From the NCBI GenBank assembly GCA_015485355.1, contig WFTQ01000114.1, positions 1 through 42,325 of the forward strand: 42,325 bases of DNA. The letters run 5' to 3'. The translations under genes were made by a program, and so were the position numbers. Source of the stretch: a bacterium. GTDB taxonomy: Bacteria; Calditrichota; Calditrichia; RBG-13-44-9; J042. The notes below the pieces were generated by a model. The model did no database searches, was not told where the DNA came from, and was given only the letters and a program-made list of their open reading frames with translations. This document shows positions 1 through 34,088 of the stretch, piece after piece. Position 1 is the first letter of the stretch; each line of letters starts with the position of its first letter.

Positions 1-712
1 AATAAGAAGGGGGAGACCCAAAAAAAGTTATAATTTTTCCAAGAGTGTCTAAAATAGCAATCTTAAATAATGCACTTTGGATAGCATAAATTTTATCATT
101 AATCAAAACCATATCGGTTTTACTTGCTTCATATGCAAGGGCTGATTTAGCTATTTTTTCATTCCTTGGAAAAAAGCTAGAAATGAACTGCCCATTACGT
201 TTGTATTTAACTATCAAGTCAGCATCACCGGGATTCTGAAAATCCTCAGAGACAGCGGTACAATATAATGCATTCATATATGGTATAACTTTTCGTGGTT
301 GAGTATGACTTGCAGAAATAAAAAAGGAGTTGAGAAAATTATACTTGGTATCAAAAAAATTGATTTTTCTTAATTTTGCATCCACTATGATAATCTCATT
401 CTCTGTAGCTGTTATACTTGAAGGAGTGATTACTTCACCAGGTCCCTTTCCTGTTTTGGCGACAATTTTTTTTAGTTTCCCATTGGAAGAAAATAAATAC
501 ACTTTCTTAGAATATGTATCACACGCAATAATATTACCCTCATTGTCAACAGCAATTCGATAAAATCCCGGGACAAAAAGTTTTCCAACTAGTTCTGTTT
601 TTGGATTTAGCCGTATTTCAGATATTAACTGAAAATACTTAGAAAAATCTTTTCCAAATACTGAAAAAACAAAAGAGAGGAAAAACAAAAAGAATAACAA
701 TTTAACCTTCAT
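1..712 (-). CDS. 6-bladed beta-propeller secreted protein, C-terminus cut by window edge
   Basis: Reading the minus strand from ATG at 712 gives an uninterrupted frame of about 237 codons that runs off the left edge. Residues 1-20 are a signal peptide (MKVKLLFFLFFLSFVFSVFG). The mature part has the repeating pattern of NHL/6-bladed beta-propeller proteins: a strand such as YRIAVDNEGNIIACD, then KKVYLFSSNGKL, then KTGKGPGEV, then ITATENEIIIVDAKLRKI, each an inner-strand/turn/outer-strand unit. GKGPGEV with a following aromatic strand is a hallmark of the Bacteroidota-type 6-bladed propellers. A good ribosome binding site (GGAG) lies 7 nt before the ATG. It lies downstream of the 61-residue peptide gene on the same strand, separated by a hairpin. 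Ligand and role are unknown. Base composition is clearly AT-richer than the rest of the window, suggesting acquisition by transfer. Confidence 0.8.
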   Translation of the reverse strand, partial: MKVKLLFFLFFLSFVFSVFGKDFSKYFQLISEIRLNPKTELVGKLFVPGFYRIAVDNEGNIIACDTYSKKVYLFSSNGKLKKIVAKTGKGPGEVITPSSITATENEIIIVDAKLRKINFFDTKYNFLNSFFISASHTQPRKVIPYMNALYCTAVSEDFQNPGDADLIVKYKRNGQFISSFFPRNEKIAKSALAYEASKTDMVLINDKIYAIQSALFKIAILDTLGKIITFFGSPPSY

Positions 713-796
713 TATTAAACTCCATTTTTAATGTTAAATCTTACATTTCAACCCCATAATTCGTTCATCTTTAATTAGAGTGGCAATCTTAATATT

Positions 797-832
797 AAGC
801 GATCCCCCCTTTGATTTCAGAGGGGATCGTTT
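797..832. terminator. Hairpin between peptide gene and propeller gene
   Basis: An inverted repeat pairs AAGCGATCCCC (797-807) with GGGGATCGTTT (822-832) around a 14-nt loop, with one G-T wobble. No long T-run follows on the minus strand, so it may act as a partial terminator or as an mRNA 3'-end stabiliser. Its position right after the minus-strand 61-residue peptide gene would let that peptide be made in excess over the propeller protein downstream. Confidence 0.5.
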
Positions 833-852
833 AAATAGTTTGCTACTCTATT

Positions 853-1038
853 CTATCTTGGGATCCACTTACACACACAATCTCCGGCAAGTACTGGACA
901 TGCACATATATCCCCATCTTTAATACCAGCTGAATAAATCGGTGGCTTTTCAGCTTTGACTTCCGATATACCCATTACAAACCATGTTATGTTTAAAATT
1001 GTAAAACTAATCAAAATAAGCTTAAATATCTTAGTCAT
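853..1038 (-). CDS. Small secreted peptide with CxC-x6-CxC tail (NVEALA-like in layout)
   Basis: A 61-residue product starts at 1038 behind a strong ribosome binding site (AAGGGG). Residues 4-24 are a hydrophobic export segment, with a plausible cleavage after VKA at residue 29. The mature ~32 residues carry four cysteines, C45, C47, C54 and C56, in a symmetric CAC...CVC arrangement near the C-terminus, suited to two disulfides or a metal site. I do not recognise the sequence as a member of a named family. Its layout, however, recalls Bacteroidota NVEALA peptides: a hydrophobic leader, a short linker, a cysteine-rich tail, and a 6-bladed beta-propeller gene next door on the same strand. It lacks the literal NVEALA motif. 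An exported signal, bacteriocin-like peptide or propeller ligand are all possible; none is shown. Confidence 0.6.
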   Translation of the reverse strand: MTKIFKLILISFTILNITWFVMGISEVKAEKPPIYSAGIKDGDICACPVLAGDCVCKWIPR

Positions 1039-1069
1039 GATAATTCCCCTTCTTTTATTTTAACTTTTT

Positions 1070-1207
1070 CTAAGATTCATCTATACAAATAACATTACCC
1101 TCCTCACCCAAACCAATCCTCCCACCCGAAATAGCCGTGGTAAACACAGAAGACCCGCCGGAGATATTCGCAACAATCCGGCGGTAGGTGAAGGTTAATG
1201 AGAACAT
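1070..1207 (-). pseudogene. Possible C-terminal remnant of a second beta-propeller gene
   Basis: On the minus strand a 45-codon frame ends at a TAG at 1070-1072, 31 nt before the start of the 61-residue peptide gene. Its last part, GGRIGLGEEGNVICID, resembles the propeller strand FYRIAVDNEGNIIACD of the truncated gene at the left edge. In-frame stop codons lie just upstream (TAA at 1220), and no ribosome binding site precedes the only ATG (1207). It could be the tail of a decayed paralogue or a chance match; a tiny active gene is less likely. Confidence 0.3.
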
Positions 1208-1871: not shown

Positions 1872-1927
1872 ATTTAACGTTCCGTGCGGGCAAGCCCTTT
1901 GGCTGCTTCTACGCAAATCCGTTGGGA
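1872..1927 (+). other. Possible degenerate attC-like site, left side of a gene cassette
   Basis: ATTTAAC at 1872-1878 fits the integron R'' consensus RYYYAAC, and GTTGGGA at 1921-1927 fits R' GTTRRRY except for the last base. Between them is a GGGC-AA-GCCC hairpin (1888-1897) and an AAGCC...GGCTGCTT imperfect arm. The 56-bp size is at the short end for attC sites. In an integrated array the last six bases of R' come from the next cassette, so poor pairing of the outer boxes is expected. Support comes mainly from the better site at 2511-2581, which would close the same cassette. No integrase gene is visible. Confidence 0.3.
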
Positions 1928-1955
1928 CGGCGCAACACCACATCCCGGTTATGCC

Positions 1956-2498
1956 ATGGTGCGATTTCTCTCTTTCATGAGATTGGTTCTGGTGCTCACC
2001 GCATTGATGTTCGTTATCGGGTGGCTCAGTGCACTCATGCTGCCCGAAGGCGTCCTTCGTCCATATTTTTCTCGCCTGTTCTCACTGCGAGTCGAACAGT
2101 TCACATTTGAGAGAGTGCTACTGGCAAATCTGTTGCCTTTTTTCGGTATCCAGTACATGAACCTGTTTAGCGTAGGCAAGTATGCAGGCGGTTTGTATGT
2201 GTTACCTGTATTTTGGATCCTTTATGGGCTACTGCTGGGTACCAATTCCTTTGTGTTTGCCGATCAGCCCGTAGCATTTTCCATTAACGTTCTTTGGACA
2301 CGGACAGGCTTTACGGAATTGCTGGCCTATACGATGAGTTATGAAGCAACAAAAGGTTGGGCACTCTGGGAACAACAAGGTTTTTGGAAGGTGCGACGGT
2401 TTCCGGGTAGGCGTTGGAAACCGCAGGTAGAAGACTGGGTATATTGGACCGCCGCTCTACTCTTCCTGGGCATTGCCGTGGCCCGGGAGGTTTACTGA
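1956..2498 (+). CDS. Polytopic membrane protein, possibly SpoIIM/DUF95-like
   Basis: The frame opens with a GTG at 1884, but the first 24 codons would read through the attC-like site and are not protein-like, so I place the start at ATG 1956 (MVRFLSFMRLVL); ATG 1977 is an alternative. The 180-residue product has hydrophobic segments at about residues 6-28, 56-75, 80-98 and 160-177. The order of features (a first helix, an extracytoplasmic stretch, a VLLANLLPFFG helix, a GLLLGTN helix, then a T/G-x-x-E-L-L helix) resembles SpoIIM-like stage II sporulation protein M family proteins. That is a tentative match from memory. The gene is flanked by attC-like sites, starts about 30 nt after the left one and ends 13 nt before the right one, as expected for an integron cassette gene. 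No clear Shine-Dalgarno is seen. Confidence 0.55.
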   Translation: MVRFLSFMRLVLVLTALMFVIGWLSALMLPEGVLRPYFSRLFSLRVEQFTFERVLLANLLPFFGIQYMNLFSVGKYAGGLYVLPVFWILYGLLLGTNSFVFADQPVAFSINVLWTRTGFTELLAYTMSYEATKGWALWEQQGFWKVRRFPGRRWKPQVEDWVYWTAALLFLGIAVAREVY

Positions 2499-5081: not shown

Positions 5082-8000
5082 TCAACCGCTCGTTTCCTGC
5101 CCTTTGTGTGAAGGGTCGGCTTGCGGGGTGAACGGAGAGCGTTGTTGCAGCCAGCTCCATACTTTTTGCAAATAGAGATTCATGTCATCGAAAAGGGTAT
5201 ACAATACCGGCACGGCAAGCAGAGTAAGGAAAGTGCTGGTAAGCATGCCCCCGATGATGGCTCTGCCCATGGGGGCGTAAGGAACCCCCAGCAGATTGGC
5301 CGATCCCAATGCCATGGGGATGAGACCGCCGATGGTAGTGAAACTGGTCATTAGAATGGGGCGCAGGCGATGTTGCCCCGCATCCAGGATGGCCTCTGTG
5401 CGAGACAACCCTGCTTTCCGCCGCCGGTTGATCATATCGATCAGCACGATGGCATTGTTGACGACCACCCCCACCAGAATGATCATGCCAATGCCCGCCA
5501 TAATGTCCTGAGGCGTTCGGGTAAGATAGAGGGCCAAATAGGCCCCAAACAGTGACAGGGGAATAGCGATCATGACCGACAGGGGCAGAATAAACGATTC
5601 GAACAAAATCCCCATCAACAGAAAGACGAATACCACCGAAACCAGCATAGCGTTCTGGAAACTGGCGGTTTGCTGACGAAACCGCTGGAAGCGGGACCCT
5701 TTTTGCCAGCTGTACCCATACGGCAATTCGAATCCCTGCATCACCCGATCGATGGCGCGGGAAATCCGGGGTAAATCTTCCATGGTGGTTTTGGCTTTTA
5801 CTGCCAGAAAGGTTTTCCCGTTTTCCCGGGGAATCTGGCCAAACCCTTTGGTGATCGAGAAGCGGGCAATGGCGTAGAGGGGGATGGGCTTTCCGTCTCG
5901 ATTCACAAAGGTCAGATTTTTCAATTGTTCCAGATTCTGCCGATCGGCCTCTTTTAATTGAATGCGCATCTGGATTTCTTTGTCCTTTGCTTGAAACCGG
6001 GGCAGATTGATCCCCCGCAGGGCGTACATGATTGTGAAGGCCACCTGGTTCGGATTGATGCCGTTGCGTTCAACGACGGCACGATCGATTGAAATCTGAA
6101 TCTCGTCGCCTCCGGCCTCGCGATCGGTTTCGACGCTCAGGACGCCCGGTATCAGGCGCATGCGTCGCTCCACTTCCTCCGCCAGCTGCGCCAGTTTTTC
6201 GGTATCGTCCCCGTACAGCAACAGAGAAACGGTGCCTTCATCGCCCCCTTCCCCCATGCTGCGCCAGGAAGTGCGGAATTTGACCCCGGGTTTTTCGGGA
6301 AGCCGCTTTTTGACATCCGCCAGCACCTGGTTGCGGTCCAGACTGCGTTGTTGATACCGGCCCAGCCACCCGGCAATGGTGCGATAGACGGTATGGTACC
6401 ACTGATTGTTCTCCGGGGGATTCAAGAAAACCCGGATGCGCCCGAAGGTGCGCCGAAAGCGGGTGTCGATGGCCTTAATGTTGTACGTCTGAGCATGGGC
6501 AAAAAGGGTGTCCTCAACTTCCCTGAAAAAGCGATCGGTATCTTCGATGCGGTAATTTTGAGGCAGCTCGAACATCAGCCGAAAATCGCTGATGCCCCCG
6601 CTGCGAAAATCGGCCTTGGGGGTACGCGGCATCAGGAAGGCGAAGGTGACCACCATGATCGCTGCCAGAACAATGACCGTATCCAGGCGGTGGTGTAACA
6701 CAAAGGCCAGGGCGCTCTGGTAATGCCGCCGGGCCCGGGAAATCAATCGCCATTCTTTTACCGGGTGTGGCGAATACAGCCGCGTAGTGGCCAGCGGAAT
6801 CAGTACCAGAGCGACAAACAACGAACCGACCAGCGCGAAGATAACCGGCAGCCCGATGCGTTTTAAATAAAAATTAAAAAAGCCCAGTTCATCTTTAATC
6901 AGGATCATGGGCAAGAAAACCACCACGGTGGTAAGGGTGGCCATGGTTACCGCCAGCAATACTTCGCTGGTACCCCAGACGGCCGCCTCCCCGGCTTTCA
7001 GCCCTTCGTGCTGTTTGCGGTAAATGTTTTCCAGAACTACGATGGCATTGTCGACCACCATGCCCACGCTGATCATCAGACCCATCATGGTAACCGTATT
7101 CAGGGTCCAGCCGATGAAGTAGGTCACGGTTAAAGAGATCAAAACCGAGATGGGAATGGCCAGGGTCATGATGATAGTCATGCGGAAGCGGCGCAGGAAG
7201 AAATACAGGATGATGATGGCGAATAACCCTCCCCAAAGGGCGGTATCGATCAGGTTGCGAATGGAATCCCGGATCAGGTCCCCCTGCGCAAACAGAATCG
7301 TGATGTCGGCGTCCTTCAGCAGCGGATGCCGACGAATTTCCTGATCGATGACTTCTCGCAGCCGGTCGCTTAGGGCCACCGTGTTGGCCAGCGACTCTTT
7401 GAAGATTTCCAGTTTAAAAGAAGGTTTTCCATTGATACGCTGATACCAATTGCGTTTGGGGACATCGTATTTCACTTCGGCGATGTCTTTGACCCGTAAC
7501 CCTTTCTGGTTGATGGGAAGGTTTTTGATATCCTCCAGGGTTCGGAACCGCCCGATGGAGCGCACGATGAATTTTTTATCGCCTTCGTAAATCCATCCGG
7601 CGGACATGGCGAAATTTTCGCTGCGAAGGTAATTGATCAGGTCGAACAGATTCACGCCGTAGGCACGCACCCGGTCTTGGTCGATCAAAATCTCGATCAC
7701 TTTTTCCTCGGCCCCATAGATATCGATGCTGGCCACACCGTCAATGCGCTCGATGGGGCGTCGCACAAAATGGTCCACCACGTAATAGGGATCGTCCACC
7801 GATTCGGGCAAAGAAATGGAAAGGAAGATGATGGGGGCATCGTTACGACCAAATTTCCGAAGGAAATAGCGTTCTACGTCATCGGGCAGGGCGGCGCGGG
7901 CCCGCTCCATGCGATCGCGCAATTGATCGTAAGCCAGGTCCATATCGGTTCCCGAATTGAACTCCAACCACACCCAGCATCCGTTGCTGTGACTATACGA

Positions 8001-8258
8001 GGATACGCTTCGGATGCCCGGAATGGTGCGCACCTGCTCTTCCACGGGACGGGCGATTTGTTCTTCCACCTCCCGGGGGTTGGCGTTCTGGTAGGGAATC
8101 CATACCCCCAGATAAGGAGGACTGAACCCGGAGGGCAGTAATTCGATGGGGATTTGCTGGTAGGCCACGAAGCCGACCACCAGAATGGCCAGCAGGGATA
8201 CCACGATGGTGATTTGCCGTTTAATAGCCAGTTGTGGCAACAGCGATGGACGTTGCAT
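5082..8258 (-). CDS. RND efflux transporter, second pump subunit
   Basis: A 1058-residue inner-membrane proton-driven RND pump of the hydrophobe/amphiphile (AcrB/MdtBC) class. It has the usual plan: TM1 at about 14-33 (RQITIVVSLLAILVVGF), a large periplasmic porter domain, TM2-6 from about 340, a second porter domain and TM8-12. The proton-relay segment reads GMVVDNAIVVLEN with D403, where many AcrB proteins have two adjacent aspartates; here the second is N. The FLPMILI and PLSVMIAIPLSLFGAYL helices are also typical. The ATG overlaps the stop of the upstream pump gene by one base (TGATG), so translation is coupled. It is the last gene of the adaptor-pump-pump operon. Substrate unknown; no TolC-like gene is in the window. 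Confidence 0.95.
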   Translation of the reverse strand: MQRPSLLPQLAIKRQITIVVSLLAILVVGFVAYQQIPIELLPSGFSPPYLGVWIPYQNANPREVEEQIARPVEEQVRTIPGIRSVSSYSHSNGCWVWLEFNSGTDMDLAYDQLRDRMERARAALPDDVERYFLRKFGRNDAPIIFLSISLPESVDDPYYVVDHFVRRPIERIDGVASIDIYGAEEKVIEILIDQDRVRAYGVNLFDLINYLRSENFAMSAGWIYEGDKKFIVRSIGRFRTLEDIKNLPINQKGLRVKDIAEVKYDVPKRNWYQRINGKPSFKLEIFKESLANTVALSDRLREVIDQEIRRHPLLKDADITILFAQGDLIRDSIRNLIDTALWGGLFAIIILYFFLRRFRMTIIMTLAIPISVLISLTVTYFIGWTLNTVTMMGLMISVGMVVDNAIVVLENIYRKQHEGLKAGEAAVWGTSEVLLAVTMATLTTVVVFLPMILIKDELGFFNFYLKRIGLPVIFALVGSLFVALVLIPLATTRLYSPHPVKEWRLISRARRHYQSALAFVLHHRLDTVIVLAAIMVVTFAFLMPRTPKADFRSGGISDFRLMFELPQNYRIEDTDRFFREVEDTLFAHAQTYNIKAIDTRFRRTFGRIRVFLNPPENNQWYHTVYRTIAGWLGRYQQRSLDRNQVLADVKKRLPEKPGVKFRTSWRSMGEGGDEGTVSLLLYGDDTEKLAQLAEEVERRMRLIPGVLSVETDREAGGDEIQISIDRAVVERNGINPNQVAFTIMYALRGINLPRFQAKDKEIQMRIQLKEADRQNLEQLKNLTFVNRDGKPIPLYAIARFSITKGFGQIPRENGKTFLAVKAKTTMEDLPRISRAIDRVMQGFELPYGYSWQKGSRFQRFRQQTASFQNAMLVSVVFVFLLMGILFESFILPLSVMIAIPLSLFGAYLALYLTRTPQDIMAGIGMIILVGVVVNNAIVLIDMINRRRKAGLSRTEAILDAGQHRLRPILMTSFTTIGGLIPMALGSANLLGVPYAPMGRAIIGGMLTSTFLTLLAVPVLYTLFDDMNLYLQKVWSWLQQRSPFTPQADPSHKGQETSG

Positions 8259-11200
8259 CAGTCCCCCCTTTCAAATAATGCATATACGGTTGGGATCACG
8301 ATCAGGGTCAACACGGTGGCGCTGATGAGGCCGGCGATAACGGTGACGGCCATGGGGGTACGAATTTCTGCGCCGTCTCCCAGCCCCAGCGCCATGGGGA
8401 ACAATCCCAGCACGGTGGTGGCGGTGGTCATTAAAATGGGGCGCAGGCGGGCCAGACCAGCCTGCTGAATGGCTTGATTTTTCGGTAACCCCCGACGCCG
8501 CAATTGATTAATGTAATCCACCATCACAATGGCATTGTTGACCACAATGCCTGCCAGCATGATTAATCCCAGAAATACCATGATATTGAGCGGTATCTTT
8601 AGAATCCACAGCACCACCACCACTCCAATCAGGGCAAAGGGAATGGTAAACAGGATCACGAAGGGATGGAGCAGCGATTCGAACTGGGAGGCCATCACGA
8701 TATACACCATGAAAATAGCCAGGATCAGCGCCAGTTTCAGACTGTTGAGCGAAACCTCCATCTCCTTATTTTGACCGGTAATCTCCACGGTGAAGTCGGC
8801 GGGCATGTCCAGCTGCTGTAAAGCGGCATACACATCGGCACTCACACTGGCCAGGTCCCGATCGACCACATTCGCCAGAATGAGGGCCGAACGCTGCTGA
8901 TCGATACGGCGGATCTCGCTGGGCCCTTCATTGACCACCAGGTGTGCCACACTCTCCAGAGGGATGGGAATGTCCCCGTTGGGATTGACATTGATGCGTT
9001 TTAAATGGTCCAGGGAGGCCTTGTCCTCGTCTTTTAAACGAACCAGAATGTCGATGCGACGATCTTCCTGTTTAAACTGGGTGGCCACATCCCCCCGGAT
9101 TTTGTTGCGCACGATGTTGGCCACGTCCAGAATGTTCAGGCCGTAGTAGGCCAGGCGTTGACGATCATAAATGATTTGCACTTCCGGGTTTCCCGATTGA
9201 ATGTTGGACTTGACGTCGGAAATCCCCGGAATACGAGCCATGATGTCCACCGCCTGGCGACTCAGGCTGGCCAGGGTTTGCAGGTTGTACCCCTTAATTT
9301 CCACTTCAATAGGGGTTTTGAAACTGAAAAGCACCGGTCGGGAGATTTTATAGGCTATGCCGCTCAACTGGTTCAGATGCTCCCGAATGCGCGCTACCGC
9401 CGCTTCTTCGGCGACAATCCGATTGCCCTGCGGTTTCAGCGTCACCGTTATTCGGGCCGTGTGTTCCCCCGCCTCACTATCATTAATCTTGGTGACATCG
9501 ACGCCCGCCACGGTGGCGATTTTTTCTACCCGGGGGTCTTGAAGAATCATCCCTTCGATGGGGGCGAGGGATTGTACGGTAGTCTCCACCGGGGTGCCCA
9601 CGGGTAGAGTGAGGTCCACGTAAAACTCACCCTGATGAACCTCGGGAATCAGTTCGCTGCCTAACCGGGGTAACAGGAGGAAAATCACCAACAAAAAGGG
9701 CAACAACGCCCCCAGGATCACGCGGGGTTTGTTCTGCAAAGACCACTGAATGAGGTGAGGATACAAGGCGTAGATCGCCTTCATCCCCCGATGGAAACCC
9801 GTGAGAATCCAGTGCACCGGGCGCGAAAGAATCCATTGAAGCAACCCCACAAAAACTTTTAGAAACAGCCCCAGCAGAAAGAGTCCGATGGTGATGAGTT
9901 TACTGATCAGGTTCAGGATGAAAAAAATGAAAAAGCGGACCGTTATGTACAGGAACCGGATGGGCAAGCTCAGATAGCGCAATGATTTCTGTAGGGCGTT
10001 CCCTTTGTTCAGGGCAAGTTTTAAACGGCCCACTGCATCGCGAAATTGAGCAATGCTGGAAAAATGTTTCAGAAAGTCTGCAGGAGATTCGCTTACCGAT
10101 ATGGGGGTAAACTGGAAATTGCGCGAAGCCAGCATGGGGATGACGAATAGGGCCACCCCCAGCGAGGCCAGAAGGGAAAACACCACCGTCAGGGCCAGGT
10201 CTTGAAAAATTTGCCCCGCCACCCCTTTGACAAAAACGATGGGAAAAAATACGGCGATGGTGGTTAATGTAGAGGCGGTAACGGCGGCTCCCACTTCACC
10301 GGTACCCCGGATGACCGCCGTGATGAGATCGTCGCCTTCTTCCCGGCAACGAAAAATGCTTTCGGTAACCACGATGGAATTGTCCACCAGCATGCCGATG
10401 CCCAGGGCTAAACCACCCAGGGACATGATATTCAAAGAGACGTCGAACAGGCGCATGGGAGCAAAGGTGGCCACAATGGAAATCGGTATGGCCAGCGCTA
10501 CAATCAGGGTGGTACGAACGTTGTTCAGAAATAAGAACAAAACCAGAATGGCCAGTAAACCGCCCTGCAAGGCCGTCTTTTTCACCTCGTCGATGGAGCT
10601 CCGGATAAAAATCGATTGGTCCGTCAGCAGGTGGATCTGCAATCCCTCGGGGAGGTTATACCGGATAAAATTGGTCATTTCTCGCTTCAACATCTGTTCC
10701 CGGAACATCTTGCGGCGTTCTTCGCGGGTCATGCGTTGTCCCGGCTTGGGCCTGGACTCTTCGGCCTCCTTTTTCCGGAGGGCTTGCTGTTTCAGCCTGG
10801 CTGCATAGGCCTGCTGTTGCGGGGTGCCGAAGATTTTCTCCTTTACCCGGCGGGCCACTTCGACAATGTTGGCATCGCCCTCTTTGTAAATCTCCAGTTC
10901 CACGCTTTCCTGACCGTTCAACCGGGTGATAATCTGCCTGTCCTTATGGGTGCGATATATCCGGGCGATATCCTTGAGTCGCAAATCGTGTCCGCTCTGA
11001 AAACCCAAACGGATATCGGCAATCTCTTCGATGGATTTGAATTCATTCAAGGTTCGCACAATATATTCGGTTTGGCCTTCTTTTAATTCCCCTCCGGCCA
11101 GATTGACATTCTCTTGGGCCAGACGCTGGCGAATTTGTTGAATGTTGAGACCCATCAGAGTAATTTGTTGTTCATCCAGCTCCACCCGTATCTCTTCTTC

Positions 11201-11755
11201 CAGGCCGCCGATCACTTTTACCGCCGCCACGCCGTCCACGGTCTCCAGAGCCCTTTTAATGGTCTCCTCGGCCACATAACGGGTAAAAAACAGATTCGGC
11301 CCCCCGGTGAGCCCCAGACGAATAATGGGGTCCAGAGAAGGATCGTAGCGCAGAATGATGGGTTTTTCCGCATCCTGAGGCAGAAACACCAAATCCAGTT
11401 TTTCCCGGACCTCGGTCATCGCCTGGTTCATATCGGTGTCCCAGTTGAACTCCAGGATCACATCGGATTGCCCGGCCTTGGAAATGGAGCTGAGGGAGAC
11501 CAGATTTGTGACCACCCCCAACGCTTCTTCGATAGGGCGGGTGATGGTGGTTTCCACCTCTTCCGGGGCGGCACCGGGATATTCCGTGCGCACCGTTAAA
11601 GAGGGATAGGTAATATCCGGCATTAAGTTCAGGGAAAGCTGATTGTAGGAGAGCCAGCCAAAAACGAGGATGCCGGTAACGATCATGAAGATGGCCACCG
11701 GCCGGGTCGTGGTGAATGCAAAAATGCTGTTGTGAATGGATTGATGTTCTGCCAT
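8258..11755 (-). CDS. RND efflux transporter, first pump subunit, with two insertions
   Basis: A 1165-residue RND pump of the AcrB/MdtBC class, about 110 residues longer than usual. TM1 is at about 19-37; the proton-relay helix has GMLVDNSIVVTES with D458. Two extra segments explain the length: a ~50-residue charged, helical stretch (about 312-362, rich in K, R, E and Q) in the first porter domain just before TM2, and a ~100-residue region (about 547-650) between TM6 and TM7 with extra hydrophobic helices such as FLYITVRFFIFFILNLI and ITIGLFLLGLFLKVFVG. It follows the adaptor gene by 42 nt and overlaps the second pump. Two unlike RND proteins with one adaptor recall MdtABC, where the two pumps form a hetero-trimer. 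Confidence 0.95.
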   Translation of the reverse strand: MAEHQSIHNSIFAFTTTRPVAIFMIVTGILVFGWLSYNQLSLNLMPDITYPSLTVRTEYPGAAPEEVETTITRPIEEALGVVTNLVSLSSISKAGQSDVILEFNWDTDMNQAMTEVREKLDLVFLPQDAEKPIILRYDPSLDPIIRLGLTGGPNLFFTRYVAEETIKRALETVDGVAAVKVIGGLEEEIRVELDEQQITLMGLNIQQIRQRLAQENVNLAGGELKEGQTEYIVRTLNEFKSIEEIADIRLGFQSGHDLRLKDIARIYRTHKDRQIITRLNGQESVELEIYKEGDANIVEVARRVKEKIFGTPQQQAYAARLKQQALRKKEAEESRPKPGQRMTREERRKMFREQMLKREMTNFIRYNLPEGLQIHLLTDQSIFIRSSIDEVKKTALQGGLLAILVLFLFLNNVRTTLIVALAIPISIVATFAPMRLFDVSLNIMSLGGLALGIGMLVDNSIVVTESIFRCREEGDDLITAVIRGTGEVGAAVTASTLTTIAVFFPIVFVKGVAGQIFQDLALTVVFSLLASLGVALFVIPMLASRNFQFTPISVSESPADFLKHFSSIAQFRDAVGRLKLALNKGNALQKSLRYLSLPIRFLYITVRFFIFFILNLISKLITIGLFLLGLFLKVFVGLLQWILSRPVHWILTGFHRGMKAIYALYPHLIQWSLQNKPRVILGALLPFLLVIFLLLPRLGSELIPEVHQGEFYVDLTLPVGTPVETTVQSLAPIEGMILQDPRVEKIATVAGVDVTKINDSEAGEHTARITVTLKPQGNRIVAEEAAVARIREHLNQLSGIAYKISRPVLFSFKTPIEVEIKGYNLQTLASLSRQAVDIMARIPGISDVKSNIQSGNPEVQIIYDRQRLAYYGLNILDVANIVRNKIRGDVATQFKQEDRRIDILVRLKDEDKASLDHLKRINVNPNGDIPIPLESVAHLVVNEGPSEIRRIDQQRSALILANVVDRDLASVSADVYAALQQLDMPADFTVEITGQNKEMEVSLNSLKLALILAIFMVYIVMASQFESLLHPFVILFTIPFALIGVVVVLWILKIPLNIMVFLGLIMLAGIVVNNAIVMVDYINQLRRRGLPKNQAIQQAGLARLRPILMTTATTVLGLFPMALGLGDGAEIRTPMAVTVIAGLISATVLTLIVIPTVYALFERGD

Positions 11756-11797: not shown

Positions 11798-13039
11798 TTA
11801 ACGGGGATTTTGGGTTTCGGGAGCCCTGGGACGGCCCCGGGCCTCGGGTTTGCGGGGCAGGGATGGCTTTCCCCGGGGTCCGGTGCGCCGGAAACGCTGC
11901 GCCAGCTCTTCGGGCCAGTTTTGCTGCCAGGGATAGCGGGCAATATCGATCACCCGAACGCGACTCCCATCCTTCAGGCCGTTTTGTCCCACCACAACAA
12001 TCGGCGTGCCCGGAGCAATGGGATTCATGATTTCCACCTTTTCTGCATCCTCAAATCCCCGCTGTAACAGCACTTTCGTAGCCGTGTCGTTTTTCAGGAT
12101 AAAAAAGTAACTGCGTTCATTTTCGTAAATAAGGGCTGCCTTAGGGATGATGGTGGTGTTTTTATGGGTATCCACAATCAATTGCACATTGACAAACATG
12201 CCGGGTTTTAAATCGCCTCGGGGATCTTTCACTCCCACGGTCACTTTGAAAGTACCGCTCTGGGCGTCTACGATGGGGCTGATGCGTTTGACCCAACCCG
12301 TAAATTGCTGTTCTGGAAGAACATCGCTGGTAATAACCGCCGGTTGACGGCGGTATACCTTGGCCATTTCGTTCTGGGGCACAAAAACCTTCACCACTTT
12401 TTGCGCCAAGTTGGAAATGACGAACAAATTGGTTGACGGCTGGATGCGGTCACCCAGATTGACCAGGCGTTCACCCACCACGCCGTTAATGGGCGAACGA
12501 ACAATGGTATAATCCAGATTGAGTTCCGCCTGTTTCCAGTCCAGTTCCGCCTGCTTCAGCGTTAAGCGGGCGTTGTCGTACTCTTCATCACTTAGCAGGT
12601 TCTTATGTTTTAAAGCGGTTAACCGCTGAAAATCCGCTTGTTGTTTTTCGTAGGCTACCCGGGCCTTTTCCGCAGCCAGAAGATACTCCCGCTGTTCCAG
12701 TTGCAGCAACGGCTGACCTTTCTCTACCCACTGGCCTTCCTCTACAAACAGTTTCTCAACCAACCCGGCGATTTGAGAGTAGATGTTCACGGTCTGCTCT
12801 GTTTCCAGTGTGGAACTGTACATGAGAAAACTGGAAATATCCCCCCTGACCGCGAACGTGATTTCCACCGGAATGGCCGAATTCGGCGAACCCGTTTTCC
12901 CGAACCGTTGCCGATCGCTCTTTCGGGAATCCTCCGAAGCACTCTTTCCGAAAGAAGCGTCGGACGATGCGTTCTTTCCACAGGATAAAACCAGAAAAGC
13001 CAGAAGGACCAGAACCAGAATCGCTGCTTTCTTCATCAA
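11798..13039 (-). CDS. RND periplasmic adaptor (membrane fusion lipoprotein)
   Basis: A 413-residue HlyD/AcrA-type adaptor that would join the RND pumps to an outer-membrane channel. It starts at 13039 behind AAAGGAG. Residues 5-19 form a lipoprotein signal, with lipobox LVLSC and C20 as the acylated residue. A low-complexity S/K/R linker (21-55) follows, then the biotinyl-lipoyl-like half (NIYSQIAGLV...VEEGQWVEKGQPLLQLE, about 85-115), an alpha-hairpin (116-170), the second lipoyl half (IVRSPINGVVGERLVNLGDRI), and the beta-barrel and membrane-proximal domains. The last ~35 residues are an R/P/K-rich tail not needed for the fold. It is the first gene of the operon. The strongly basic tail is unusual for this family. 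Confidence 0.93.
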   Translation of the reverse strand: MMKKAAILVLVLLAFLVLSCGKNASSDASFGKSASEDSRKSDRQRFGKTGSPNSAIPVEITFAVRGDISSFLMYSSTLETEQTVNIYSQIAGLVEKLFVEEGQWVEKGQPLLQLEQREYLLAAEKARVAYEKQQADFQRLTALKHKNLLSDEEYDNARLTLKQAELDWKQAELNLDYTIVRSPINGVVGERLVNLGDRIQPSTNLFVISNLAQKVVKVFVPQNEMAKVYRRQPAVITSDVLPEQQFTGWVKRISPIVDAQSGTFKVTVGVKDPRGDLKPGMFVNVQLIVDTHKNTTIIPKAALIYENERSYFFILKNDTATKVLLQRGFEDAEKVEIMNPIAPGTPIVVVGQNGLKDGSRVRVIDIARYPWQQNWPEELAQRFRRTGPRGKPSLPRKPEARGRPRAPETQNPR

Positions 13040-29120: not shown

Positions 29121-32100
29121 ATGAGGAAATGGATTGTATTCTGGATGTTGCTCGTGATCGGTCGGGTAGGAGGGGCGGTAACTTCAGAATTTTATACAAT
29201 TAAGACCCAGACAACCGATAAACTGGTGATTGAATTCCACTTCCCCGACCTCCAGGTGCAAACGCTTCCCGGCGGTCAAAACAGCCGTGTCGAAATTCCA
29301 GGTCTAAATTATCATTATGAACTCAATCAACCGCTGGTACCGTTACTGGTGTTACCGCTTAATCTTCCCCGTAACGTTTCGGCACCCCTTGTAACCATCC
29401 ATCAGATTCGGCGATTCACGGGAATTTCCCCTCCGGTATACCGGAACGATAGTCTGCAGGTGGAGCCGCCGGGTACCACGGTTTTGCCCTTCCCCGGGCG
29501 CATCGTAAAGCTGGTCTACCAGGGATTGTTCCGGGACTTCCCCATTTATGCTTTGCGGGTGTATCCGGTTCAAGTGACTGCGGAAGGAATTCGTTTTTTT
29601 CAGAAATTTTCCGTGACTCTGTATCTGAAAAAACAGTCCGCCGGCCGGCAGGGAAAGTATGCCGCAAAGACCGCCGCAGAGCTCCCTTTGTTGAAGAAAT
29701 GGGTGGCCAACCAGGAACAAAGCGGTTTTGTCGAGGCCCTTGCCGCCAGCTCTATCGGTCAAACACTGAATCAGGATGAATGGAATTTTAAACCCAGAAT
29801 CCGGTTGGTCGTTGTAGAAAAAGGGGTGTATAAAGTGACGGGGGCCGATCTGGAAGAACATGGTATCGACCTGAACCGACTGGATCCGCGAACCTTCCGT
29901 TTGGTGAACCGGGGACAGGAAGTCCCTTTCCTTCTGTACGGGGAACAGGATGGTCGATTTGATCCCGACGATTATATAGAATTTCTGGGAGAGCCCAATG
30001 ATGGCACCTTTTTAAAAGAATATCCCGATATGTACAAAGACCCTTTCACCGATGAGAATGTGTATTGGTTGGAGTGGGGAGGGCATCCGGGTGTGAGAAT
30101 GGTGGAAGAGAGCGGTGGAATTGTTACCACTGATCCCACACGGTATAATCCGGCACCTTTTTACGCCCATACGGTGCATGTTGAGGAGGACAATCATTTT
30201 GAGCGCTTGGGATTTGGGAGTATTGGAAGTCTGTCTTATCAGCGGGACCTCTGGTACTTCGATACCGGAATCAAATCCATTGGAAAGAAACAGTATCCCT
30301 TTGAGCTCATTTATCCGGATTCCACTTCATTCAATCCGGTCGAAGTTAAGGTGATGTTTTCAGGAAAATCCATTGGTGGGTCTCCCCATAACGTGATGGT
30401 TTGGCTGAATAATGGCTTGATCGGAATGGCCCGGCCCGGCTGGTTCAATCAAGACACCGCCACGGTCAGCAATGTTGGGAATTCCAATATACGCACCCTT
30501 GATCTCCGGCACGGTGAAAACATTCTGGACGTCCAGCTGCCGGTAAAGCCCCCGGTGGGCACCGATATTGTATTGCTGAACTGGTTTGAGGTCACCTACG
30601 ACCGGCAGTACCGGGCCTATCGGAATCAGATCGAGTTCCGTAAACCGTCCATTGTTTTCTTTCCCAATGTAAACCTCTTCCAGTTTGAAATCGATGGGTT
30701 TACCCGATCCGATATTCAAATTTATAAAAAAGGTATCGGCAAAATCATCAATTATAAATTGGAGATTGAGGAGGTCAAGGGACGGAAAATGTATAAGGTG
30801 ATATTTCAGGATCACATCATTGCAGACGATGTTGAATATGTCGCCATTACGGAAGATTTGAAAAAAAAACCGCTGCGCATCGAACTGGACGAACCCTTTG
30901 ATCCGGAGCGTCCCGAGTTGACATTGAAAAATCCGGCCAATTCCGCCGATTATTTGATCATTACCCACCAGCGTTTTTACCGCCAGGCACTGGAGCTGAG
31001 GGACTATCGCCGTTCTCAGGGCTTGGCTGTCGAATTGGTCAGGGTTCAGGATATTTACGACGAATTCAACCATGGCATTAAATCCCCTCTGGCCATACGG
31101 GATTTTCTGCAGTACGCCTATTATCATTGGGATCAGAACCACAAATTGAAGTACGTGTTGTTATTGGGGGATGCCAATTATGACTATAAGTCCACTTCGA
31201 CCCTGTTTACCGATTTTGTGCCCACCTTTTTTCTGCAAACATTTAAATTTGGCGCCGCTGCCACGGACTATCCCTACAGTTTGCTTTCGGGGGATGATTT
31301 GATCCCCGATGTGTTCGTTGGACGTATTCCGGTAATGGTGGCCAGCGATGTTACGGTGGCCACGGAAAAAATTATCGAATATGAGCAAAATCCCATCCTG
31401 GGGCCCTGGCGGAATCAGGCGCTGTTTATCAGCGGAAATGACGCATCGACTTTTGAATTTGATTATCGAGATCGTCCTCTTTTTCGGGTGCAGAACGCCC
31501 GGATGCTGGAAGTGCTTTTGCCGCAACACCATACGGCCTTTCGTCTGAACACCGTCAAGGACCCCACCAAAGATTATGATCCCAATTTCGGCGGCACCAC
31601 CGATCTGATCGAATATTTCGATGACGGATTGTATTACATCAATTTCTTGGGCCATGGCGGCGGGGCCATCTGGGCGGATGTCAATCTATTCAATCTGCGC
31701 GATGTGGATCGTTTGAATAATAAAGGCATGTATCCGTTCATTACCAGCATGACCTGTTTTACCGGGGCCTTCGATAATCCGGGTAATATGGGCCTGGCGC
31801 AGAAACTGGTTCTGGCAAAAGACAAGGGTGCCATCGGGGTTCTGGCCTCTTCGGGACTGGGCTGGGCATATAACGATTTTGCCATGTTATGGTCGGTGGG
31901 GCAATTTTTATTTAATCCGGAATTCCGGGTAGGGGAAGCGGTTACCCTGGGAAAAATTTTCTACCTCACTTCGCAATCCAATTACTTTGTGAACGATACC
32001 CTGTTCACCGCTCCGGGGTATTTTTACTTATTCAAGGACATGGTCCATCAGTACAACCTGATTGGAGATCCTTACATCCAATTCGAGGCGGTGCCCACCG

Positions 32101-34088
32101 ATTTAACCCTGGAGCTGGACAATGCCTTACCCCAACCAGGCGACACCATACAGGTAACCCTTTCGGTACCGTTTGCCCCGGCGGAAGGCTATATCGAACT
32201 GGCCGATTATCAAAACAATGTGGTGACTCGGATGCCTGTATACACAACGGGGCAGACCGAGAGCGTTCGCCTGGTCATCCCGGAGAGTTTTCCCGAAGGC
32301 ACCGGGAGGTTAAGGGCCTATTTATCCGATGGTCAACGGGATGCCAGCAACGTTGTGCCTATCGGGATAAATTATGCGGTTCTGGATTCGATTGTGTTGC
32401 TTCCCCGTAATCCTTCGGCAGATGATAGTGTCTATTTACAACTTCACGTGCGGGACCCTTTTGGAGTTCGTCAGGTGTATGTGTTGGTGGCCAACATTCG
32501 GCAGCGCTTTTCCACCCGTGAAATCCGCTCCGGTGTTTTTCAAACCGTTCGGCCGTTGCCCCCCACGTATGCCTTGCAAACCGTCTTTTTCAGCGTATAT
32601 GTGGAAAACAATCGCGGCAACAAGAGTGTGTTCCGCAATCGAAGCTATACCATTCTGGATGATCGCCCGGATGTGTTTGTGGAACCGCGCTCCATCCGTT
32701 TCGGCGGACGAGAGCGGGTCAAGGTGACGGCGGTTCTGGGGAACAAAGGGCGCTCGGTGGCTCAAAATGTCCCGGTGCATTTCTACCAGGGGGAGACCAA
32801 CTTTAAAAACCATACCCCCTTTGCCGTGCAAACGGTGAACATCTCACCGGGGGATAGTATTCATGTGGGGGTGGATTTTCCCTTTAATTTGTCCCGGGAT
32901 CAATTTCGTTTGTACGTAGCGGCAGATCCCCAGGGTCGTTTGCCCGATTTCAATCGGAACAATAATGTGGATAGCGTTTCCCTTACGCCTACGCTCTTCA
33001 ATGTTACGCCTGAACTGGGCACCACCTATGACGGAGTGACCGGGGATACGCTGAGACTGGGGGATCGAGTGGCCCTTTACATTCCTGCTGGGGCTGTCGA
33101 TCGGCCCAGCGTCTTGTTGCTGCGATGGAAATCGGTAGAGCCTCCCCGGGATCAAAAGGGGTTGCAACTTTTGCCTGTGGTGGAGCAAGATCAGTACCAT
33201 GCGGTAGAGGTTCGGCTGCTTAATCTGGATGCCCAGACCAACCAACCCTTTTATTTGCGTATCAAACCCAGACCGATCGCGAATTACGGAACTTCTCCCT
33301 TACAGGAGGTGACCCTGTATCGGAAGGTGGGAACCTCGCAGCCCTGGGTGGCCGTGGAAACCGATGTTGAGGAGAATGAAGGATATGTGTATACCCGGAC
33401 TCATCGCGACGGGATGTTCGCTCCTTTCATTTCCGGGGATTTGCAACCCCCACGCATCGAATTGACTGTAGACGGTCGACCGTTTCAAACGCGGGCCCAG
33501 GTGTCTTCCAATCCGGTGATGCACCTGGTGATTGAGGATGAAAGCGGGGTGATTCTCAGCCCGGAACAGATCGCCATTACCATTGATGGGCAACCCTTAG
33601 CTCCGGATAAAATTTTTATTCCCGATTCGGTTCGGAAGAGCAACATCCTGGGCATTACGTTGTATCCGGAACTGGAAGTCGGCCAGCACGATCTAAAAGT
33701 GCAGGCGAAGGATGTGAACGGCAATTTGGCCGAAAAACAATACGACCTCCTGGTAAGCGATGAGTTCGATGTGCATGTGTTCGGTAATTATCCCAACCCG
33801 TTCACCGATCAAACCATTTTCGCCTATTATGTGAGTCCCGATGTGTTGGATGAATTTGAAATACGGATCTACACCGTTAGCGGGCGTTTGATTCGGGTGA
33901 TTACCGAAGATATTAATACCATTAATCAACCGCATGGAGCGCGCGCCAGCGGGTATAACGAGTTGATCTGGGATGGCACGGACGAAGAGGGCAATGAGGT
34001 GGCCAACGGGGTATATTTTGCTTTGATCCGGGCCAAGTATCAGGGGGAAGTTAAAGAAACCATTCTTAAAGTGGCCAAATTGAAATGA
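29121..34088 (+). CDS. porU: PorU-like T9SS sortase, C25 (gingipain-type) cysteine peptidase
   Basis: PorU cleaves sorting domains from T9SS cargo and links cargo to the cell surface. The 1655-residue product has a signal peptide (1-19), an N-terminal beta region, and a C25 peptidase domain at about 606-990. The catalytic pair is H845 in INFLGHGGGAIW and C879 in TSMTCFTGAFDNP, 34 residues apart, about the same as in gingipains. ADYLIITHQRF, KYVLLLGDANYDY, PDVFVGRIPV and NLIGDPYIQF are typical of the PorU/C25 family. Several Ig-like beta domains follow, and the C-terminus is a type A sorting-like domain (NYPNPFTDQTIF at 1556, NGVYFALI). It is longer than Bacteroidota PorU (about 1100-1300) mainly through extra C-terminal beta domains. 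It heads an operon with a PorV-like gene 25 nt downstream. A C25 cargo peptidase is the alternative. Confidence 0.88.
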   Translation: MRKWIVFWMLLVIGRVGGAVTSEFYTIKTQTTDKLVIEFHFPDLQVQTLPGGQNSRVEIPGLNYHYELNQPLVPLLVLPLNLPRNVSAPLVTIHQIRRFTGISPPVYRNDSLQVEPPGTTVLPFPGRIVKLVYQGLFRDFPIYALRVYPVQVTAEGIRFFQKFSVTLYLKKQSAGRQGKYAAKTAAELPLLKKWVANQEQSGFVEALAASSIGQTLNQDEWNFKPRIRLVVVEKGVYKVTGADLEEHGIDLNRLDPRTFRLVNRGQEVPFLLYGEQDGRFDPDDYIEFLGEPNDGTFLKEYPDMYKDPFTDENVYWLEWGGHPGVRMVEESGGIVTTDPTRYNPAPFYAHTVHVEEDNHFERLGFGSIGSLSYQRDLWYFDTGIKSIGKKQYPFELIYPDSTSFNPVEVKVMFSGKSIGGSPHNVMVWLNNGLIGMARPGWFNQDTATVSNVGNSNIRTLDLRHGENILDVQLPVKPPVGTDIVLLNWFEVTYDRQYRAYRNQIEFRKPSIVFFPNVNLFQFEIDGFTRSDIQIYKKGIGKIINYKLEIEEVKGRKMYKVIFQDHIIADDVEYVAITEDLKKKPLRIELDEPFDPERPELTLKNPANSADYLIITHQRFYRQALELRDYRRSQGLAVELVRVQDIYDEFNHGIKSPLAIRDFLQYAYYHWDQNHKLKYVLLLGDANYDYKSTSTLFTDFVPTFFLQTFKFGAAATDYPYSLLSGDDLIPDVFVGRIPVMVASDVTVATEKIIEYEQNPILGPWRNQALFISGNDASTFEFDYRDRPLFRVQNARMLEVLLPQHHTAFRLNTVKDPTKDYDPNFGGTTDLIEYFDDGLYYINFLGHGGGAIWADVNLFNLRDVDRLNNKGMYPFITSMTCFTGAFDNPGNMGLAQKLVLAKDKGAIGVLASSGLGWAYNDFAMLWSVGQFLFNPEFRVGEAVTLGKIFYLTSQSNYFVNDTLFTAPGYFYLFKDMVHQYNLIGDPYIQFEAVPTDLTLELDNALPQPGDTIQVTLSVPFAPAEGYIELADYQNNVVTRMPVYTTGQTESVRLVIPESFPEGTGRLRAYLSDGQRDASNVVPIGINYAVLDSIVLLPRNPSADDSVYLQLHVRDPFGVRQVYVLVANIRQRFSTREIRSGVFQTVRPLPPTYALQTVFFSVYVENNRGNKSVFRNRSYTILDDRPDVFVEPRSIRFGGRERVKVTAVLGNKGRSVAQNVPVHFYQGETNFKNHTPFAVQTVNISPGDSIHVGVDFPFNLSRDQFRLYVAADPQGRLPDFNRNNNVDSVSLTPTLFNVTPELGTTYDGVTGDTLRLGDRVALYIPAGAVDRPSVLLLRWKSVEPPRDQKGLQLLPVVEQDQYHAVEVRLLNLDAQTNQPFYLRIKPRPIANYGTSPLQEVTLYRKVGTSQPWVAVETDVEENEGYVYTRTHRDGMFAPFISGDLQPPRIELTVDGRPFQTRAQVSSNPVMHLVIEDESGVILSPEQIAITIDGQPLAPDKIFIPDSVRKSNILGITLYPELEVGQHDLKVQAKDVNGNLAEKQYDLLVSDEFDVHVFGNYPNPFTDQTIFAYYVSPDVLDEFEIRIYTVSGRLIRVITEDINTINQPHGARASGYNELIWDGTDEEGNEVANGVYFALIRAKYQGEVKETILKVAKLK

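Follow-up and report, generated by a model that had tools for sequence, protein, structure and literature searches.

A 61-residue reading frame next to a beta-propeller gene, at the very edge of a Calditrichota contig, raises two questions: is it a gene, and if so, why should a small cysteine-rich peptide be made beside a propeller? The window analysed here is this contig in its entirety (WFTQ01000114.1, 42,325 nucleotides). The reading frame (853-1038, minus strand) starts with ATG, is preceded by the Shine-Dalgarno-like sequence GAAGGGG 7 nt 5' of the start codon (1046-1052, minus strand) and encodes MTKIFKLILISFTILNITWFVMGISEVKAEKPPIYSAGIKDGDICACPVLAGDCVCKWIPR. All features of the exported four-cysteine peptide proposed by the sequence-only reading were present: a hydrophobic leader, which signal peptidase I likely cleaves near EVKA-EKPP, is followed by a mature part with cysteines at 45, 47, 54 and 56. 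The mature part reads Y-x-A-G and then C-x-C-P-V-L-x-G-D-C-x-C. The motif CxC-x(4-8)-CxC occurred in just one of the 225 window ORFs of 40-100 aa, namely this one. A Pfam search yielded no family match for the peptide. The AF2 model, of low-to-medium confidence, showed a leader helix at residues 2-24 and short strands at 35-40 and 43-48.

The neighbouring gene (2-712, minus strand) encodes an exported DUF5128 propeller, of which the first 237 residues are covered before the gene leaves the contig. Its assignment is based on a match to PF17170 '6-bladed beta-propeller' (E=1.9e-10, 40.9 bits, above the cut-off of 22.9), on its homologue and on the tree described below. A Shine-Dalgarno-like GGAG lies 7 nt 5' of its ATG (720-723, minus strand), which in turn lies about 140 bases 3' of the peptide gene on the same strand. 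The N-terminus is hydrophobic, without a lipobox cysteine. Thus a peptide gene sits directly upstream of a propeller gene with a signal-type start, as had been read from the sequence, the propeller gene being cut at the contig end. The AF2 model of this fragment had a pLDDT of 43 and was left out of the fold search. A collapsed repeat as the cause of the contig end was rejected, as window positions 1-400 have no second copy in the genome. The surmised AT-rich island is real, with 32.1% G+C at 1-1060 versus 52.0% at 3801-42325. A suspected remnant of another propeller at 1070-1207 had to be dropped: it matched nothing in Pfam, and in BLAST it resembled none of the propellers compared, its best match (E=3.4) being to a non-propeller. 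Next to the island, 1884-2498 (plus strand) encodes a probable membrane protein of 204 aa that matches no Pfam family. Further away, at 29121-34088 (plus strand), lies a gene for a 1655-aa protein with a Peptidase C25 (gingipain-type) domain (E=4e-88), perhaps a PorU-like protein of type IX secretion; it is preceded by a 1671-aa protein without Pfam match.

If the peptide is genuine it should recur with its propeller. A Calditrichales MAG of the same class (G022, WGCN01000167.1) carries two tandem peptide homologues, containing ICHCPIIQGDCMC and RCSCPVLYGDCYC, directly 5' of a homologous propeller. Both fit the pattern CxCP[VI][LI]xGDCxC; identity of these homologues (locus L034) is 36-40% and that of the propellers 32%. 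The three peptides agree in thirteen alignment columns, including Y35, A37, G38, all four cysteines, P48, G52 and D53. In a search of 40 genomes of the class there was no copy of this peptide type beyond the window and G022. A match in G026 was discarded as chance because it runs antisense within a larger gene; weak matches in many relatives (E 0.01-1), some of which were examined, were likewise taken as chance. Other peptide types occur in the class. Whole-genome searches placed the copies at propeller loci in 3/3 cases for the window type, 6/6 for the Caldithrix type and 2/2 for the G001 type. G001, which belongs to the window's own genus, lacks the window type and has another type with two cysteines only, so the distribution is patchy. 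In tandem copies of the Caldithrix type (G017) the leader is conserved and the mature part divergent; the G017 genes encode 91-94 aa, with a putative signal cleavage site near EAYA-T. Peptides of different subgroups share the leader only, at weak significance, a likeness that does not show common descent of all peptide types.

For a quantitative assessment PF17170 matches were collected with their surroundings from 40 Calditrichota genomes; 59 rows (58 ORFs, the window's being counted twice) matched the profile of the propeller group. A uniform test asked for an upstream ORF of 45-115 aa with a basic-hydrophobic leader and at least two cysteines after it, at a distance of up to 700 nt, on the same strand and not within a large ORF. 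Within the window's group 7 of 10 propellers had such an ORF, versus 0 of 48 other propellers and 2 of 200 other genes. The Fisher probabilities of 4e-7 (propellers only) and 3e-10 (all) are to be read with the criterion having been set after examples were seen and the group partly picked on the same data. An eighth member of the group has a peptide as well, the third G017 copy, whose leader is apparently frameshifted. Because of the post hoc criterion and the partly overlapping choice of the group the tree is the fairer check. There all ten peptide-linked propellers, two of them from outside the class, lay among the 17 rows on one side of a split supported at 100/98, compared to 0/46 on the other side. 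Long branches make the fine branching inside the clade uncertain; the peptide link requires five changes on the tree and the peptide is missing at two G001 propellers and at the second propeller of G117. Judged by these sequence comparisons, pairing with a small peptide is general in one propeller clade. Thus the linkage that the sequence-only reading had chosen as its touchstone was found in G022, with other peptide types and in the 40-genome survey. A chance ORF beside a propeller would explain its shortness and the missing family match. Yet, given the homologues, the linkage statistics and the conservation in two families of the class, we regard this as most improbable.

The sequence-only reading had also placed a hairpin between the two genes. 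It lies between peptide stop and propeller start (800-829, minus strand) and has an 11 bp stem with a weak T-rich tail, resembling an attenuator. The window gap folded with z=-4.95 and none of the shuffles folded equally well. A stable hairpin shortly 3' of the peptide stop was present in all 8 peptide-propeller gaps, with unrelated sequences and in some cases a U run behind it. A stable hairpin is also present in about one third of the 47 gaps used as controls, which separate genes on the same strand, so a hairpin by itself is common, yet eight out of eight is unusual. The hairpins of the eight gaps were stronger than the controls (Mann-Whitney p=1e-4 on z, one of the eight also being among the 47). 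It is a reasonable inference from the sequence that the hairpin is a leaky terminator which could give a peptide-rich ratio. Several strong gap hairpins were also seen in another conserved Calditrichota pair, a gene for a probable cytochrome of about 205 aa ('GSAHDFS') followed by a propeller (L048 3685-5498; L052 6192-8014; L057; L065; L071; L077).

An exported peptide, a cognate partner and a hairpin that could favour the peptide are what one would look for in a peptide signal with the propeller as its receptor, the function first suggested for this locus. Yet, at the loci examined the pairs have no recurrent neighbour that is a sensor kinase, a sigma/anti-sigma pair or another transduction gene, and the propeller has no recognised signalling domain. 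We consider a signalling role rather unlikely.

Further hints came from the neighbour genes. At related loci a thioredoxin-like protein with an NxCxxC motif, a MauE/DoxX redox membrane protein and an RND pump with its adaptor recur. Counted by propellers, which are not independent loci, an RND permease on the same strand within 6 kb was found at 9 of 12 clade members versus 1 of 46 others, a thioredoxin-like gene within 6 kb at 6 of 12 versus 0 of 46 and MauE at 5 of 12 versus 0 of 46. By genome the RND link comprises G001, G017, G024, G002 and the window. In G017 the MauE gene (PF07291, E=1e-24) twice overlaps the start of the peptide ORF by 8 bases. G002 has a thioredoxin-like gene, a propeller, a MauE-like gene and another propeller in this order, MauE-like being called from position, a CGCGLFG motif and a BLAST seed; the thioredoxin-like proteins were called from their NxCxxC motif together with profile matches in the PDB (E=3.4e-4 and 2.1e-3). 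Outside the phylum G117, the single genome of its phylum in the set compared, has peptide, propeller, a thioredoxin-like NDCMSC protein, RND permease and adaptor in a row, the pump being 46% identical to that of G001. Neither a MauE nor a thioredoxin-like gene was found in the window, where the contig ends inside the propeller, or on the short G022 contig. The window does encode two RND permeases (5082-8258 and 8258-11755, minus strand, PF00873) and a HlyD/CusB-type adaptor (11798-13039, minus strand, PF16576). Because they lie upstream of the pair, 4.4 kb away with plus-strand genes in between and on the opposite side from the relatives' pumps, and because they are only distantly related to those, they were not counted in the unit; that they are part of the system is possible but doubtful.

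CusB-like adaptors invite the idea that the peptide is a thiol-rich metal ligand and that the metal or the complex is removed by adaptor and RND pump. The CxC...CxC of the peptide and the match of the adaptor to the HlyD_D23/CusB domain fit. However, the pumps got their best scores from multidrug RND permease models, without reaching any curated cut-off and not specifically from CusA/CzcA, the redox partners favour disulfides and the G001 peptides have just two cysteines. Metal handling thus seems very unlikely.

The redox genes in turn recall the mau cluster, in which a small disulfide-rich exported subunit, a propeller, MauE and a thioredoxin-like protein occur together. The relatives' gene set mirrors MauA/B/E/D, and MauE is speculated to aid disulfide formation in the small subunit of methylamine dehydrogenase (as cited in PMC7794033). 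The peptide and propeller might then be two subunits of an envelope protein of this kind, made by MauE and a MauD-like thioredoxin. Against this, the propeller profile matched NHL propellers and not the heavy chain in the PDB search, by which membership in methylamine dehydrogenase was rejected, and the peptides lack the two conserved Trp that a quinone cofactor would need. A two-subunit protein is therefore improbable, albeit less so than metal handling.

MauE and MauD homologues also occur in candidate RiPP clusters with Cys-rich precursors of at least 8 Cys (PMC7794033). A RiPP-like antagonistic peptide with the propeller for self-protection or maturation would agree with the tandem peptide copies, conserved in the leader and divergent in the mature part, and with G260, where related propellers follow a radical-SAM/SPASM enzyme, an ABC exporter and a Cys-rich ORF of 54 aa. 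On the other hand, no RiPP modifying enzyme lies near the peptides of the window, G001, G017 or G022, the leaders are of Sec type and not RiPP leaders, and no defence family matched (PADLOC found no model of anti-phage defence). The downstream side of the window propeller is off the contig, and within the window no modifying enzyme was seen by the peptide; at relatives the enzymes that could serve are MauE in G017 and G002 and the radical SAM in G260. Likewise, the ABC exporter and radical-SAM context belongs to the G260 propellers, the window contig ending inside its own. Of the alternatives we take this one most seriously, still as an unlikely one. In G260 itself, clade propellers follow an ABC exporter at L111 2455-6944 and L106 5651-9231; with the radical-SAM/SPASM enzyme, a 97-aa ORF and the 54-aa Cys-rich ORF at L111 these loci have the look of a RiPP cluster not described before that includes a propeller lipoprotein.

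Base composition sets the clade apart, too. All 12 clade propellers were 9-27 G+C points below the large genes around them versus a median of -0.7 for 45 others (p=1e-7), and the G117 module is likewise AT-rich (30 vs 57% G+C). This favours a mobile or constrained module history over a local accident of the window. Because of the conserved leader with divergent mature part in the Caldithrix type, the AT-richness and the patchy distribution, the analysis suggests a mobile, fast-evolving partner pair as with secreted signalling or competition peptides. G017 also contains a row of MauE-peptide-propeller modules in tandem, with signs of decay (L044 2964-8813): a MauE is broken and a leader frameshifted before 7725, and another broken peptide lies at record position 481695.

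Taken together, we tentatively prefer, at somewhat less than an even chance, a small Cys-rich peptide with a cognate envelope propeller. The peptide would be exported by Sec and cleaved near EVKA-E, and its cysteines would be oxidised in the periplasm, a step that in relatives would fall to the linked MauE/thioredoxin-like proteins; disulfides are the best guess because of these redox neighbours. The mature peptide would then be bound by the propeller, which is the likely binding partner because of the close pairing and would itself be periplasmic here and a lipoprotein in the majority of relatives. In relatives the linked RND-adaptor pump might move the peptide or its product out of the cell. 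The hairpin, as leaky terminator or 3' stabiliser, would keep peptide mRNA in excess of propeller mRNA and so set the ratio of the partners. With few genomes and the key contig end cut, the comparisons indicate that the pair is real and conserved, a variant of an uncharacterised peptide/propeller kind.

How does this compare with known systems? Other Calditrichota NHL/DUF5128 propellers are of the same Pfam family or superfamily, many in cytochrome clusters, yet they occupy a separate side of the tree and have no peptide, normal G+C and no RND or redox neighbours. The candidate decRiPPter clusters of Streptomyces similarly place a small Cys-rich precursor by MauE/MauD homologues, whereas the window itself shows no MauE; their precursors have at least 8 Cys, and the parts of PMC7794033 used here describe no propeller pairing. 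Our literature search retrieved nothing else of relevance on MauE with propellers and no paper using the names NVEALA or DUF5128.

The closest layout is that of the NVEALA peptides (PF14055), whose pairs with 6-bladed propeller/BF3164 lipoproteins are already annotated in gut Bacteroidales records. The parallel drawn by the sequence-only reading stood for gene order and failed for family membership. The window peptide lacks the NVEALA motif, as had been noted, and belongs to a different phylum; PF14055 matched nothing in any of the 40 Calditrichota genomes, and hhalign profile comparison gave no homology signal, so that by sequence membership was rejected. Caldithrix-type leaders end in NIFVPEAYA, which by eye slightly resembles NVEALA, but hhalign lends this no support. 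Strong hairpins are absent from the NVEALA gaps of Phocaeicola dorei, unlike the Calditrichota gaps. What is common is a small peptide with hydrophobic leader, the NVEALA tail being variable and Cys-rich, directly upstream of a DUF5128-type propeller. In P. dorei plasmid pBdorCL06T03-4 (NZ_CP072250.1) NVEALA is followed by a propeller, a 176-aa NCYPC protein and a second propeller, i.e. a thioredoxin-like gene follows the propeller as in the window's relatives; elsewhere in P. dorei an NVEALA gene lies 5' of a BF3164 lipoprotein. Since the pairing is conserved and genes for disulfide handling and efflux pumps frequently lie next to it, an uncharacterised secreted-peptide system is indicated, with a layout like that of one in gut Bacteroides. 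It is conceivable, though we would not count on it, that Calditrichota, the candidate phylum of G117 and Bacteroidota share an undescribed envelope system of which NVEALA is one branch. In it dedicated MauE/thioredoxin-like proteins would fold a Sec-exported Cys-rich peptide, a cognate propeller lipoprotein would bind it and a linked RND pump would handle it. The shared layout, found in Calditrichota with unrelated peptides and together with redox and pump genes, provides a testable model of an oxidised secreted peptide and its cognate propeller.
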